Positions 7,189-29,275 of a DNA stretch of 37,686 nucleotides are shown piece by piece (the stretch's first letter is position 1; each line of letters opens with the position of its first letter). Source of the stretch: Methylobacteriaceae bacterium (GTDB taxonomy: Bacteria; Pseudomonadota; Alphaproteobacteria; Rhizobiales; Beijerinckiaceae); the NCBI GenBank assembly GCA_019244955.1, contig JAFASC010000222.1, positions 1 through 37,686 of the forward strand, written 5' to 3'. The position numbers and the translations under genes are program-made. The notes under the pieces were generated by a model. That model saw only the letters and a list, made by a program, of their open reading frames with translations. It did no database searches and had not been told where the DNA came from.

Positions 7189-9291
7189 TTACGCCGGCGT
7201 AAGTTGGAAGAGCGCGAGCGAACGTGCGCCGATTGGAAATGTTCCCCCCGGACGCAGAACGGATACCGGCGTGCGCACATGTCCATGAGCCTCCTGCGTA
7301 TCGAACACATGTGTCCACGCGGCTCCCGGCAAATGCGGATTGAGCGTGAAATCGACCTTTTTGGTGGATGCGTTGAGGAGGACGATAAATCGCTGGCCGT
7401 CGGCCGAATCGTTGCCGATCTGCATGCCGAGCGTACGACGGTTCTCGTCCGCCCAGTCCTCGTTGGTCATTTCCCGGCCCTCGGGCGCGAGCCAATAGAC
7501 GTCCTGCAGGCCATTCTTGTCGACGCGGGAGCCGGTCAGATAACGGCGCCGGCGGAACACGTCATGACTGCGCCGAAGCCGGATGAGCAGCTGAATGAAG
7601 GAGAATAGATCGGGATCGACTTTCTCGCCGCGGTCCCAATCGAGCCAGCTCGTCTCGTTGTCCTGACAATAGGCATTGTTGTTGCCCTTCTGCGTGCGCG
7701 AGAATTCATCCCCCATGAGCAGCATCGGCACGCCGACAGAGAAGAACACCGTCGCCAGAAGGTTGCGCTTCTGCTGGGCACGCAAAACGAGAATGGCGGG
7801 GTCCCTGGTCGGCCCCTCGACCCCGCAATTCCAGGAGACGTTATGGGGATGTCCGTCTTTGTTGTCCTCGCGGTTCGGCTCGTTGTGACGCTCGTTGTAG
7901 CTGACGAGGTCCTGCAACGTGAAGCCGTCATGGGACGAGACATATTGGACCGAAGCCCAGGGCTGGCGCCCGCGCCTGTGAAAGATCTCGCGTGATCCAG
8001 TGAGGGCGCGCGCGAGACCGGCGATCTGTCCGGCATCGCCGCGCCAGAAACCGCGGATCGTGTCGCGAAAGCTATCGTTCCACTCGCTCCAGCCGGGCGG
8101 AAATTGTCCCAAGCGGTAGCCGTTGGAGCCGAGATCCCACGGCTCCGCGATCAATTTGACGCGCGACAAAACCGGATCCTGCCCAACTGCGCGCAGGAAG
8201 CCGGCCCGGTCGGAAAACTCGAATGGGTCGCGGGCGAGCGCCGGTGCAAGATCGAAACGGAAGCCGTCGACGTGATAAGCCTCAACCCAATGCCGCAGAC
8301 TGTCCGTCACCATCTGCAGGACGCGCGGATGCGCAAGGTCGAGCGTATTTCCGGTCCCGGTCACGTCCCAGACGAAACGCGGATTGTCCGGTGCAAGCTT
8401 GTAGTAGCTGCGATTGTCTATGCCGCGGAAGGAGAGCGTCGGGCCGAGCTGATTGCCTTCGGCGGTATGATTGTACACGACGTCGAGGATGACCTCGATC
8501 CTGGCTTCGTGGAGCGTGCGGACGGCGGCTTTGAGATCAAGCACGCCATCACCTTCGGAGCTGTAATAGCGCGGCTCCGGCGCGAAGAAAGCGAGAGTCG
8601 AATAACCCCAATAGTTCCTGAGCTTCTTCTCGACGAGAAAGCGATCGTCGGCGAAGGCATGGATCGGCATGAGTTCGATCGCGGTTACCCCGAGCTTGAC
8701 CAGATGATCGACGATCGCGGGATGGGCGAGCGCGGCATACGTGCCGCGCATCGTCATCGGCACGTCGGGATGCAGCTGCGTCAGGCCTTTGACGTGCGCC
8801 TCGTAAATCAGCGTGTCGCGCCACGCGTGACGCGGCGGCTGATCGCCACCCCACATATGCGAAGGGTCCTCGACCACGCATTTCGGCATCATCGGAGCAC
8901 TATCGCGGCTATCTCGGGTGAGGTCGGCGCGATGCGCATCCCGCCGATAGCCGTACAGCGCATCGTGCCAGCGAATGCGTCCGGAGAGCCGCCGCGCGTA
9001 AGGGTCGATGAGCAGCTTGCGCGGGTTGAAACGGTGGCCGTGCGCCGGTTCATAAGGTCCGTGCACGCGGTAGCCGTACAATTGTCCCGGGCGCAGTCCG
9101 TTCACATAGCCGTGCCAGACTTCGTCCGAATATTGCGGCAGTCTATATTCCTCGATCTGACGGCGTCCGGACGAGTCGAACAGGCAAAGGTCAACCGCGC
9201 TCGCATGGGCTGAAAACAGGGCGAAGTTCACGCCCTTGCCGTCCCAGGTCGCACCGAGCGGCGCAGGCGAGCCGTCGTCGAGGCGCGTCAT
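7189..9291 (-). CDS. glgX: GlgX, glycogen debranching enzyme
   Basis: GlgX hydrolyses alpha-1,6 branches of glycogen or limit dextrins and supplies linear maltodextrins to MalQ and TreY. From the ATG at 9291 the protein has 700 residues. A CBM48-like N-domain (GSPAPLGATWDGKGVNFALF, residues 8-27) is followed by the GH13_11 barrel: LDVVYNHTAEGN at 269-280, VDGFRFDLA with the nucleophile at D347, LIAEPWDLG with the acid/base at E383, and VSSHDGFTLQDLV. The frame is open further upstream to 9465, but that stretch overlaps otsA and resembles nothing in the family. The ATG at 9291 gives the normal N-terminus, has a GGAA about 9 bases upstream and leaves 32 bases after the otsA stop. Confidence 0.94.
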   Translation of the reverse strand: MTRLDDGSPAPLGATWDGKGVNFALFSAHASAVDLCLFDSSGRRQIEEYRLPQYSDEVWHGYVNGLRPGQLYGYRVHGPYEPAHGHRFNPRKLLIDPYARRLSGRIRWHDALYGYRRDAHRADLTRDSRDSAPMMPKCVVEDPSHMWGGDQPPRHAWRDTLIYEAHVKGLTQLHPDVPMTMRGTYAALAHPAIVDHLVKLGVTAIELMPIHAFADDRFLVEKKLRNYWGYSTLAFFAPEPRYYSSEGDGVLDLKAAVRTLHEARIEVILDVVYNHTAEGNQLGPTLSFRGIDNRSYYKLAPDNPRFVWDVTGTGNTLDLAHPRVLQMVTDSLRHWVEAYHVDGFRFDLAPALARDPFEFSDRAGFLRAVGQDPVLSRVKLIAEPWDLGSNGYRLGQFPPGWSEWNDSFRDTIRGFWRGDAGQIAGLARALTGSREIFHRRGRQPWASVQYVSSHDGFTLQDLVSYNERHNEPNREDNKDGHPHNVSWNCGVEGPTRDPAILVLRAQQKRNLLATVFFSVGVPMLLMGDEFSRTQKGNNNAYCQDNETSWLDWDRGEKVDPDLFSFIQLLIRLRRSHDVFRRRRYLTGSRVDKNGLQDVYWLAPEGREMTNEDWADENRRTLGMQIGNDSADGQRFIVLLNASTKKVDFTLNPHLPGAAWTHVFDTQEAHGHVRTPVSVLRPGGTFPIGARSLALFQLTPA

Positions 9292-26963: not shown

Positions 26964-27434
26964 GTGACAAAGATGACGGTCGTCGCTGCAGTGCTCATAA
27001 GCGGACTGGTCGTGTCCGTTCCGGGCGCAGCCCAGACACCGACCACGCCGCCGCCGGCCTCGCCGAGCGCCCCGACCGCGCCGAACGCCGCCATGCCGTC
27101 ACCAACGGCGCCGATGCCCACCAATTCGCCCGCGACACCGTCACCGGCGACCCAATGGCTCGCGTCGAACGTCTACAACCAGAGCGTCTACGATCAGCAC
27201 GAGCAGAAGATAGGCGACCTGACCGACCTGATCATCGAGAAGGACGGCCATATCAAATCGGCGATCATCGGCGTCGGCGGTTTTCTCGGCGTCGGCCAGA
27301 AGGACGTAGAAGTCCCGTTCACCGATCTGAAGATGATGACGCGCAACGGCAAAAACTGGCTGGCGCTAGATCGCACGAAGGACCAGCTTCAGAGTGCGCC
27401 AACGTTCGACAAAAGCAGCCTGAAGCTTCCGTAA
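26964..27434 (+). CDS. Exported PRC-barrel domain protein
   Basis: A 156-residue protein with a signal peptide (MTKMTVVAAVLISGLVVSVP, likely cut after GAAQ), a long Pro/Ala/Ser-rich linker (about 26-63) and one PRC-barrel domain (about 64-140: ASNVYNQSVYDQHEQKIGDL, KSAIIGVGGFLGVGQKDVEV, VPFTDLKMM). PRC-barrel proteins of this kind are common stress-induced periplasmic proteins in rhizobia; the molecular role is unknown. The GTG has GAGGG about 8 bases upstream; an ATG three codons in is less well placed. An EcfG-like promoter lies in front. It converges on the small gene at 27464. Confidence 0.85.
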   Translation: MTKMTVVAAVLISGLVVSVPGAAQTPTTPPPASPSAPTAPNAAMPSPTAPMPTNSPATPSPATQWLASNVYNQSVYDQHEQKIGDLTDLIIEKDGHIKSAIIGVGGFLGVGQKDVEVPFTDLKMMTRNGKNWLALDRTKDQLQSAPTFDKSSLKLP

Positions 27435-27463: not shown

Positions 27464-27715
27464 TCAGCCGCGGCTAGCGCTCTGCAGCTTGCCGTCGATG
27501 GCGATGATCAGCATGCGCATGTCATCGGGATGCTCAGCTGCAGCGGGAGAGTAGAGCTTGCGCAACCGCGGCCCGAGTTGCTGCGCCTCGACAGATCCGT
27601 CGTTGGCGCGCGCGTCCGTGCGCCGCAACGGCCGGTCGCGGGGAATGATCTCGAAGCTCGGACCCGGTGCAGTGCGGCGGGACATGGTGTTCACGAACGG
27701 CTTGGTGATGCGCAT
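27464..27715 (-). CDS. Small protein of unknown function behind an EcfG promoter (possibly NepR-like)
   Basis: An 83-residue frame whose codons mostly end in G or C, as in real genes here. The N-terminal half is basic and disordered-looking. The C-terminal half, LGPRLRKLYSPAAAEHPDDM followed by RMLIIAIDGKL, has a faint likeness to the NepR anti-sigma pattern (LGxxLRxxY, then an acidic/proline turn and a hydrophobic helix). That likeness is weak and is my inference. A perfect EcfG-type promoter sits about 50 bases upstream, which supports a real gene in the general stress regulon. No good Shine-Dalgarno precedes the ATG at 27715; an ATG at 27685 is an alternative. It diverges from an HWE kinase, a partner type common in this stress pathway. 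Confidence 0.55.
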   Translation of the reverse strand: MRITKPFVNTMSRRTAPGPSFEIIPRDRPLRRTDARANDGSVEAQQLGPRLRKLYSPAAAEHPDDMRMLIIAIDGKLQSASRG

Positions 27716-27770
27716 AAGCGTAATCGTGGCAGACGGAAATCAGCCCCTCCGCTTTGCGGGTTGTCACGAA

Positions 27771-27795
27771 AACGCCGCATTTTACCATTCGTTCC
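27771..27795 (-). promoter_or_regulatory. EcfG-type general stress promoter, perfect consensus
   Basis: On the minus strand GGAAC (27795-27791) and CGTT (27774-27771) are separated by exactly 16 bases, matching the EcfG consensus. The predicted transcript start is about 50 bases before the ATG of the small gene at 27715. It lies in the 176-base gap shared with the divergent HWE kinase; I see no matching site on the plus strand. Confidence 0.65.
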
Positions 27796-27891
27796 CCAGG
27801 AGCTTTACCATTTGTGACTTGGAGTACAGATATTCTCGCGCTCGCCAACTAGCTTCGGACGGGCTAGCTTAGCTTTAACTTCGCGAGTGTG

Positions 27892-28995
27892 ATGTTGACC
27901 GGTCCCAGCAGCAAAGCTGAGCCATTCCTGTTTCGGGTCGCCGACCCGACAAGCGACGGCGGTCGCGCAGGCGTGCACGGCGGCGCGCACGAGCCGGCCG
28001 ATCTGCGCAAGGCGCTCGAGCGGACAACGCTCGCGCTCGCCGCCGGCGAGATCGGCGTCTGGGAATGGGACTTCGTCAGCGGCAGCTTCATTTGGGATGA
28101 GCGGATGCGCACCCTCTGGGGCCTGCCCGACGACACGGTTCCAACATACGAGCTGTTTCGCAATGCTTTGAACCCCGCCGATGTCGAGCGCAGCGACGGC
28201 GCACTCCTGACCGCCACCAACCCCGCCCGCGATGGCGACTATGAAGTCGAATACCGCGTGATCGGCATCAAGGACGGTATCGAACGCTGGGTACTGGCGC
28301 AGGGCCGCGCCTTCTTCCAAGACGGCAAAGCGATTCGCATGATCGGTACCGCGCGCGACGTCACCGAGCGTAAGCAGCGCGAAGCGCATGTCCGTTTCCT
28401 CATGCGAGAGATCGCGCATCGCTCGAAAAATCTGCTGGCGGTGATCCAAGCAATGGCGCGCCAGACCGCAGTGACGGCCGGCTCTGCACATGATTTCGAG
28501 CAGATATTCTCCGCGCGCCTGCAGGCGCTCGCTGCCTCACACGACATTCTCATGGATGAGGACTGGCATGGCGCCTCGATTGAGGAGCTCGTGCGCACGC
28601 AGGTCGGTCACTACGTCGATCTGATCGGCACGCGAATTGATCTCGCCGGCCCGGAAATGATGCTGAAGCCGGAAGCTGCGCAGAATCTTGGGCTGGCCCT
28701 GCATGAGCTGGCAACCAATGCAGCAAAATACGGCGCGCTCGCCAACGAAGATGGACGTATCGAGATACGCTGGGAACTCGATCAGAGCCGCTTCCGAATC
28801 AGCTGGCAGGAGATTGGCGGGCCGCCGGTTTCGCCACCTCAACGCGAAGGATTCGGTCATAAGGTCGTGACGCGAATCGTAACCTTGGCGCTCGAAGGCA
28901 CGGTCGATTTGCGTTTCGAGCCGAGCGGCCTCGTCTGGCGGCTCGACATTCCGGACAAGCACATCCTCACCCGGGGCGGTGGCGGCCGCGGGTGA
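27892..28995 (+). CDS. PAS-HWE sensor histidine kinase
   Basis: A 367-residue soluble kinase without membrane helices. A PAS domain spans about 38-155 (LALAAGEIGVWEWDFVSGSF, RVIGIKDGIERWVLAQGRAF, GTARDVTERKQRE). The kinase part belongs to the HWE/HisKA_2 group: MREIAHRSKNLLAVIQAMA with the phosphorylated His, ALHELATNAAKYGAL (N-box) and the WQEIGGPPV Trp-x-Glu motif that names the family, then GFGHKVV. HWE kinases often feed the PhyR-NepR-EcfG stress cascade or work as light/redox sensors; no LOV cysteine motif is evident. I chose the ATG at 27892; a GTG lies directly before it. No response regulator is adjacent. Confidence 0.92.
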   Translation: MLTGPSSKAEPFLFRVADPTSDGGRAGVHGGAHEPADLRKALERTTLALAAGEIGVWEWDFVSGSFIWDERMRTLWGLPDDTVPTYELFRNALNPADVERSDGALLTATNPARDGDYEVEYRVIGIKDGIERWVLAQGRAFFQDGKAIRMIGTARDVTERKQREAHVRFLMREIAHRSKNLLAVIQAMARQTAVTAGSAHDFEQIFSARLQALAASHDILMDEDWHGASIEELVRTQVGHYVDLIGTRIDLAGPEMMLKPEAAQNLGLALHELATNAAKYGALANEDGRIEIRWELDQSRFRISWQEIGGPPVSPPQREGFGHKVVTRIVTLALEGTVDLRFEPSGLVWRLDIPDKHILTRGGGGRG

Positions 28996-29006
28996 GGACG
29001 TCGCGG

Positions 29007-29192
29007 TTAGTACCGCCCGCGCCGCGCGAAGCCGAACACAAGCGAGATCAACAGCAGGACCAGCGCGACCCAGAACAGGATCCGTGCGCCTTCCATGGCC
29101 GTGCCGGCGACGCCGGTGAAGCCGAGCAGCGCGGCAATGACCGCGACGATCAGGAAAACCACGGCCCAATGCAGGAGATTGCCGAAGTTCAT
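29007..29192 (-). CDS. DUF1328 small membrane protein
   Basis: A 61-residue protein with two membrane helices (about 8-26 and 37-54) around the conserved loop FTGVAGTAMEGARILFWV, ending FARRGRY. This matches the DUF1328/YtjA family. Function is unknown; such proteins are frequently stress-induced in alphaproteobacteria. It lies downstream of alaS on the same strand but has its own EcfG-type promoter. Confidence 0.9.
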   Translation of the reverse strand: MNFGNLLHWAVVFLIVAVIAALLGFTGVAGTAMEGARILFWVALVLLLISLVFGFARRGRY

Positions 29193-29249: not shown

Positions 29250-29275
29250 AACGGGGAGCTAAGTTGCAAAGTTCC
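29250..29275 (-). promoter_or_regulatory. EcfG-type general stress promoter for the DUF1328 gene, perfect consensus
   Basis: On the minus strand GGAAC (29275-29271), 17 bases, then CGTT (29253-29250), in full agreement with the EcfG consensus. The predicted start of transcription is about 50 bases before the ATG at 29192. The site is just beyond the alaS stop. Confidence 0.7.

Follow-up and report, generated by a model that had tools for sequence, protein, structure and literature searches.

In this study we describe a small gene on the minus strand of a 37,686-nucleotide contig of a Methylobacteriaceae bacterium (JAFASC010000222.1; the whole stretch is called the window below). Its product, a protein of 73 residues encoded at 27464-27685, is recognisable through intermediate sequences as a strongly diverged relative of NepR, which restrains the general stress response, and the gene stands behind a sigma-EcfG-type promoter box, GGAAC-N16-CGTT (27771-27795, minus strand). 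We consider it probable that this protein is a fast-diverging NepR-type regulator, driven by sigma-EcfG, that damps the response via a general-stress partner, most likely PhyR. The initial annotation of this stretch, which had reported the box in front of an unrecognised protein of the general stress regulon, is partly confirmed as an observation, and its interpretation is supported at the level of sequence.

Proposed role of the small protein

A stress-induced brake through PhyR is the most likely role, because two NepR paralogues under EcfG control, META2p0735 of Methylobacterium extorquens and NepR2 of Sphingomonas melonis, have been found to bind PhyR and to reduce the response (PMC4814048, PMC6599016). 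Stress would free EcfG, the box at 27771-27795 would be used and the 73-residue protein would accumulate. Its predicted C-terminal helices, LGPRLRKLY and PDDMRMLIIAID, may bind a stress-response partner, most likely the sigma-like domain of PhyR, on which the protein would compete with NepR; the NepR thereby released would bind EcfG, and the response would be damped. The same PhyR could be fed by the adjacent PAS-HWE kinase, which we regard as a candidate. By analogy with the paralogues studied in other species, we propose a NepR2-type brake role for the window protein with moderate confidence. MexAM1_META2p0735 of M. extorquens AM1, a species from the wider bacterial group to which the window's organism also belongs, is likewise small, NepR-like and preceded by an EcfG-type promoter; it binds PhyR, and its over-expression lowers stress resistance (PMC4814048). 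It differs in that it was found by BLAST and PSI-BLAST with NepR, whereas the window protein falls under every library cut-off, and the HWE-kinase/PRC-barrel neighbourhood belongs to the window, none having been found described for META2p0735. In Sphingomonas melonis, alanine at L32/L31 and Y36/F35 weakened NepR/NepR2; the counterparts in the window protein are L41 and Y45 (F in the congener), which match L31 and F35 of NepR2 of strain Fr1 (PMC6599016). However, S. melonis belongs to a different order of bacteria, and its NepR2 gene is part of the ecfG/phyR locus (genes 1444 to 1448), whereas the window gene lies beside an orphan HWE kinase (PMC6599016). Some NepR paralogues have been inert in tests, and one of them, META1p2700, did not bind PhyR (PMC4814048).

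Considerably less probable, in our judgement, is that the protein, though NepR-like, does not compete for PhyR but inhibits EcfG or another ECF sigma factor directly, as an anti-sigma factor. RpoE2, the EcfG sigma factor of Sinorhizobium meliloti, is a binding partner of both NepR proteins of that species (PMC4814048), and the window's genome has several other ECF sigma factors. The ECF genes observed here, however, stand beside genes resembling their own membrane anti-sigma factors, and the EcfG-driven paralogues of M. extorquens and S. melonis showed PhyR binding while EcfG binding was not detected (PMC4814048, PMC6599016).

Neither ecfG nor nepR nor phyR was detected in the window's assembly, which is 91% complete. 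In the congener (genome G001) nepR and ecfG are adjacent on contig C356, near the contig end, and no phyR was found in its assembly. Two PF22029 matches in genome G000 were rejected as PhyR, both being ECF sigma factors with anti-sigma-like genes following. The ECF sigma factor genes at L038 6360-7901 and L037 5073-6385 exceed the Pfam PhyR_sigma2 cut-off and neither is a PhyR; this model alone overcalls PhyR.

The way in which alphaproteobacteria shut the stress response down again is poorly understood. EcfG-controlled NepR paralogues have been proposed as an answer, with support from two species to date, and a similar logic would be found here in a protein too diverged for the family libraries searched. 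Our findings suggest that annotation underestimates the number of NepR-type brakes.

The small gene and its neighbours

Within the genus, the comparison covers one other genome, the congener G001, in which an orthologue with a 74% identical protein stands at the same place, after a CitMHS-type transporter gene and a PRC-barrel gene. Over the 69 codons compared, substitutions at codon positions 1/2/3 number 11/8/30, with dN 0.154, dS 0.894 and a dN/dS of about 0.17, a pattern which confirms that the small frame is under coding constraint. The gene proposed initially is therefore real, but its length of 83 residues was wrong. That frame had begun at 27715, and the alignment with G001 shifts by 1 nt, while in the congener an in-frame TGA lies three codons ahead of ATGTCCCGC, which together rule out the first ten codons; ATG 27685 is the only start common to the window and the congener, so the protein starts there and has 73 residues. 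Judged from the position of the box, transcription would start near 27763, and because the translation start has moved to 27685, the expected untranslated leader is about 78 nt (27686-27763, minus strand) and not about 48 nt. An overlapping minus-strand frame of 104 residues (27534-27848) was rejected, as it has no family match and the conserved frame is the one of 73 residues. Locus L159 was left uncounted as a third genome, its DNA upstream of the kinase being identical to that of the congener.

Divergent from the small gene lies a PAS-HWE histidine kinase gene (27889-28995, plus strand; 368 residues; Pfam HWE_HK 2.2e-24, PAS_3 2.4e-9), and converging on it is the gene of a 156-residue PRC-barrel protein whose N-terminal part includes a hydrophobic stretch (26964-27434, plus strand; Pfam PRC 2.3e-12). 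The kinase orthologue on contig C138 of G001 is 93% identical. A kinase homologue adjoins the NepR-like gene in G001 and in two genomes of another genus, g28 (G337 and G332), a homologous PRC-barrel protein is encoded at the same place in G001, G337 and G396, and the order PRC-barrel, NepR-like, HWE kinase is common to the window, G001 and G337. In G337 the PRC-barrel gene is followed by an opposite-strand NepR-like gene with a strict EcfG box and then by the PAS-HWE kinase gene; in G396 the PRC-barrel gene and the NepR-like gene, again with a box, are accompanied by a PAS protein, read here up to its 3' part; and in G332 the NepR-like gene with its box is divergent from the HWE kinase gene. 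The g28 loci thus resemble the window in the small gene, its box, the PRC-barrel gene (G337, G396) and the divergent kinase (G337, G332), but differ in that the small protein still has PVPDRF (G337) or MPDRF (G396). No NepR-like neighbour was found beside the kinase homologues in genera g17 and g42, so that among the loci examined only part of the family has the pairing.

Since kinases of the HWE/HisKA2 class drive PhyR (PMC12148442), the neighbouring HWE kinase is a plausible candidate partner. Gene order ties a diverged NepR-like protein to a specific HWE kinase, and this defined locus is a place where kinase-specific feedback could be tested. The same gene order, found in two genera, would also suit a NepR-like activator that binds unphosphorylated PhyR and promotes its phosphorylation by the neighbouring kinase, and NepR binding is reported to cooperate with PhyR phosphorylation in Rubellimicrobium and Caulobacter (PMC12148442); nevertheless, we regard an activator as improbable, since over-expression of the EcfG-driven paralogues tested in other species weakens the response. 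A wider idea, speculative and in our view rather unlikely, is that NepR has expanded in the genus to at least four diverged small paralogues beside canonical NepR, each possibly answering a different sigma factor or stress kinase. The window member, the HWE kinase and the PRC-barrel protein might then form a self-contained module in which the kinase has its own stress-induced brake.

Kinship to NepR

Library searches left the window protein empty-handed: Pfam and NCBIfam gave nothing up to E 10, neither it nor its orthologue matched Pfam NepR (PF18557) up to E 10, and a direct protein search of the genome contigs returned no relative. The protein initially called unrecognised is nevertheless NepR-like once intermediate sequences, that is, paralogue and g28 profiles, are used. 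A two-sequence profile, A1, picked further small frames within the genus (G001:C167, G001:C196 and G000:C298), and a five-sequence genus profile, A2, added G001:C204. As a link beyond the genus A1 was rejected, since it returned noise there. A2, built from the five genus sequences with no NepR among them, was searched across 397 genomes of the family; outside the genus 27 of its 28 best fetched places belong to the NepR family, against 0 of 22 for A1 as the control, with family membership called by an independently built profile of 21 NepR proteins. In profile-profile comparison with NepR, A2 scored 32.0 (probability 79%), versus 21.2 for the best of 200 column shuffles. The profile of the two orthologues is not clearly beyond chance against NepR, its score being reached by 5 of 200 shuffles, and the kinship therefore rests on the intermediates and on gene order.

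Two leave-out tests, each searched against 619 ORFs plus 2000 shuffles, placed the window protein and its orthologue on top: a profile of four genus paralogues, with the window protein left out, gave E values of 5.5e-6 and 1.8e-8 (next match 0.22), and a profile of the three g28 proteins gave 4e-4 and 1.4e-3 (next match 0.35). Among the corresponding g28 proteins, that of G337 clears Pfam NepR with 32.3 bits (cut-off 25.7), that of G396 lies just under it with 23.3 bits and that of G332 well under it. The best PDB sequence match of a mixed profile, A3, is NepR (3t0y_B, E 1.5e-4), which is supportive only, because A3 includes a canonical NepR. We think it very unlikely that the protein is an unrelated, lineage-specific stress protein whose likeness to NepR arose by chance or by convergence on a short helical pattern. 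Such a protein would fit the missing direct Pfam match and the shuffle result for the two orthologues, but not the independent profiles that rank the window protein first with clear gaps to the next match, nor the Pfam-recognised NepR at the same place in another genus (G337).

Like canonical NepR (PF18557; 3t0y chain B), the window protein is short and carries the helix 1 motif (I/L)GxxLRxxY, as LGPRLRKLY at residues 37-45 (F for Y in the orthologue), and a predicted second helix with hydrophobic spacing that ends in LD/ID. It differs from canonical NepR in that the (V)PDRF motif opening helix 2 is absent, PVPDRF being eroded to HPDDM (NPEDI in the orthologue), in that one residue is missing between the helices, in its lack of a Pfam match and in the place of its gene outside any ecfG operon. 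As the protein falls below the Pfam cut-off and lacks the PDRF motif, we file it as NepR-like and not as NepR. An N-terminal pattern like (I/V)PRD..P(V/L), with variants, recurs among the NepR-like proteins of the genus, as does LGxxLxxLYxP, behind which comes a second stretch resembling a helix. NepR has two amphipathic helices and flexible ends; for the window protein, single-sequence AlphaFold2 predicts, with low confidence (mean pLDDT 63.8), helices at residues 37-44, 47-51 and 53-71.

The EcfG-type box and related boxes

In a motif search of the window, the minus strand from 27795 to 27771 reads GGAACGAATGGTAAAATGCGGCGTT, with the -35 half at 27795-27791 and the -10 half at 27774-27771, ahead of a same-strand open frame, just as initially described. 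The window has three matches to GGAAC-N15-18-CGTT versus 1.23 expected, and all three stand at promoter distance before a same-strand gene. Over the whole assembly GGAAC-N16,17-CGTT shows no enrichment (58 matches versus 82 for the reversed control pattern), so that a match alone is no proof; the motif itself being common, the credibility of the box hangs on its place and its conservation. At the rate given by the genome-wide count, about 8e-6 per position, any one 200-nt stretch upstream of a gene has a chance of about 1 in 600 of containing a box.

Conservation of the box and the frame in related genomes had been named initially as a check, and both are kept in G001. All nine box bases are retained there in intergenic DNA (C138), and the box stands 86 nt from the same ATG, versus 85 nt in the window. 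It reads GGAACGAATGGTGAAATAAGGCGTT across the overlap of contigs C202, which carries the small gene, and C138, which carries the orthologous kinase; both contigs end in the same 20 bases, an overlap from which they appear to abut. Strict EcfG boxes also lie upstream of the corresponding gene in the three g28 genomes G337, G396 and G332. Because the congener keeps the nine bases at a near-equal distance and strict boxes recur in these three genomes, we place the box above chance; that it is a chance match, with the small gene transcribed from another promoter, would agree with a motif no commoner than its reversed control, but in the face of this conservation we give it little credence. A conserved GGAAC-N16,17-CGTT at promoter distance, one mark of the sigma-EcfG regulon, is thus present, and the box conservation in the congener together with the boxes in another genus supports the proposed place of the gene in the general stress regulon, where its transcription would depend on EcfG.

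A direct repeat, TTTACCATTYGT, occurs at 27781-27792 and 27804-27815. Its copies are 23 nt apart, one within the EcfG box and the other just upstream of the -35 half, and both are largely kept in the congener; the repeat could be a candidate operator.

Two further EcfG boxes were observed in the window. The second (N17; 29250-29275, minus strand) lies 57 nt before a DUF1328 gene (29007-29192, minus strand), and nearly the same sequence is found in the congener at G001:C138:11778-11803. The third (N16; 7221-7245, minus strand) is at the end of one coding region and 35 nt before the ATG of a frame which, by eye, resembles the beginning of treZ, a trehalose gene; G001:C265:2913-2937 holds a near-identical box, and the conservation of this third box may be an effect of the surrounding coding region. 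Near the start of other NepR-like paralogues of the genus (L036 3617-3823, L040 about 3050, L039 10164 and L098 45-299), GGAAC has GATT or CATT in place of CGTT at a spacing of 16-17 nt, which is possibly a weaker or variant EcfG promoter.
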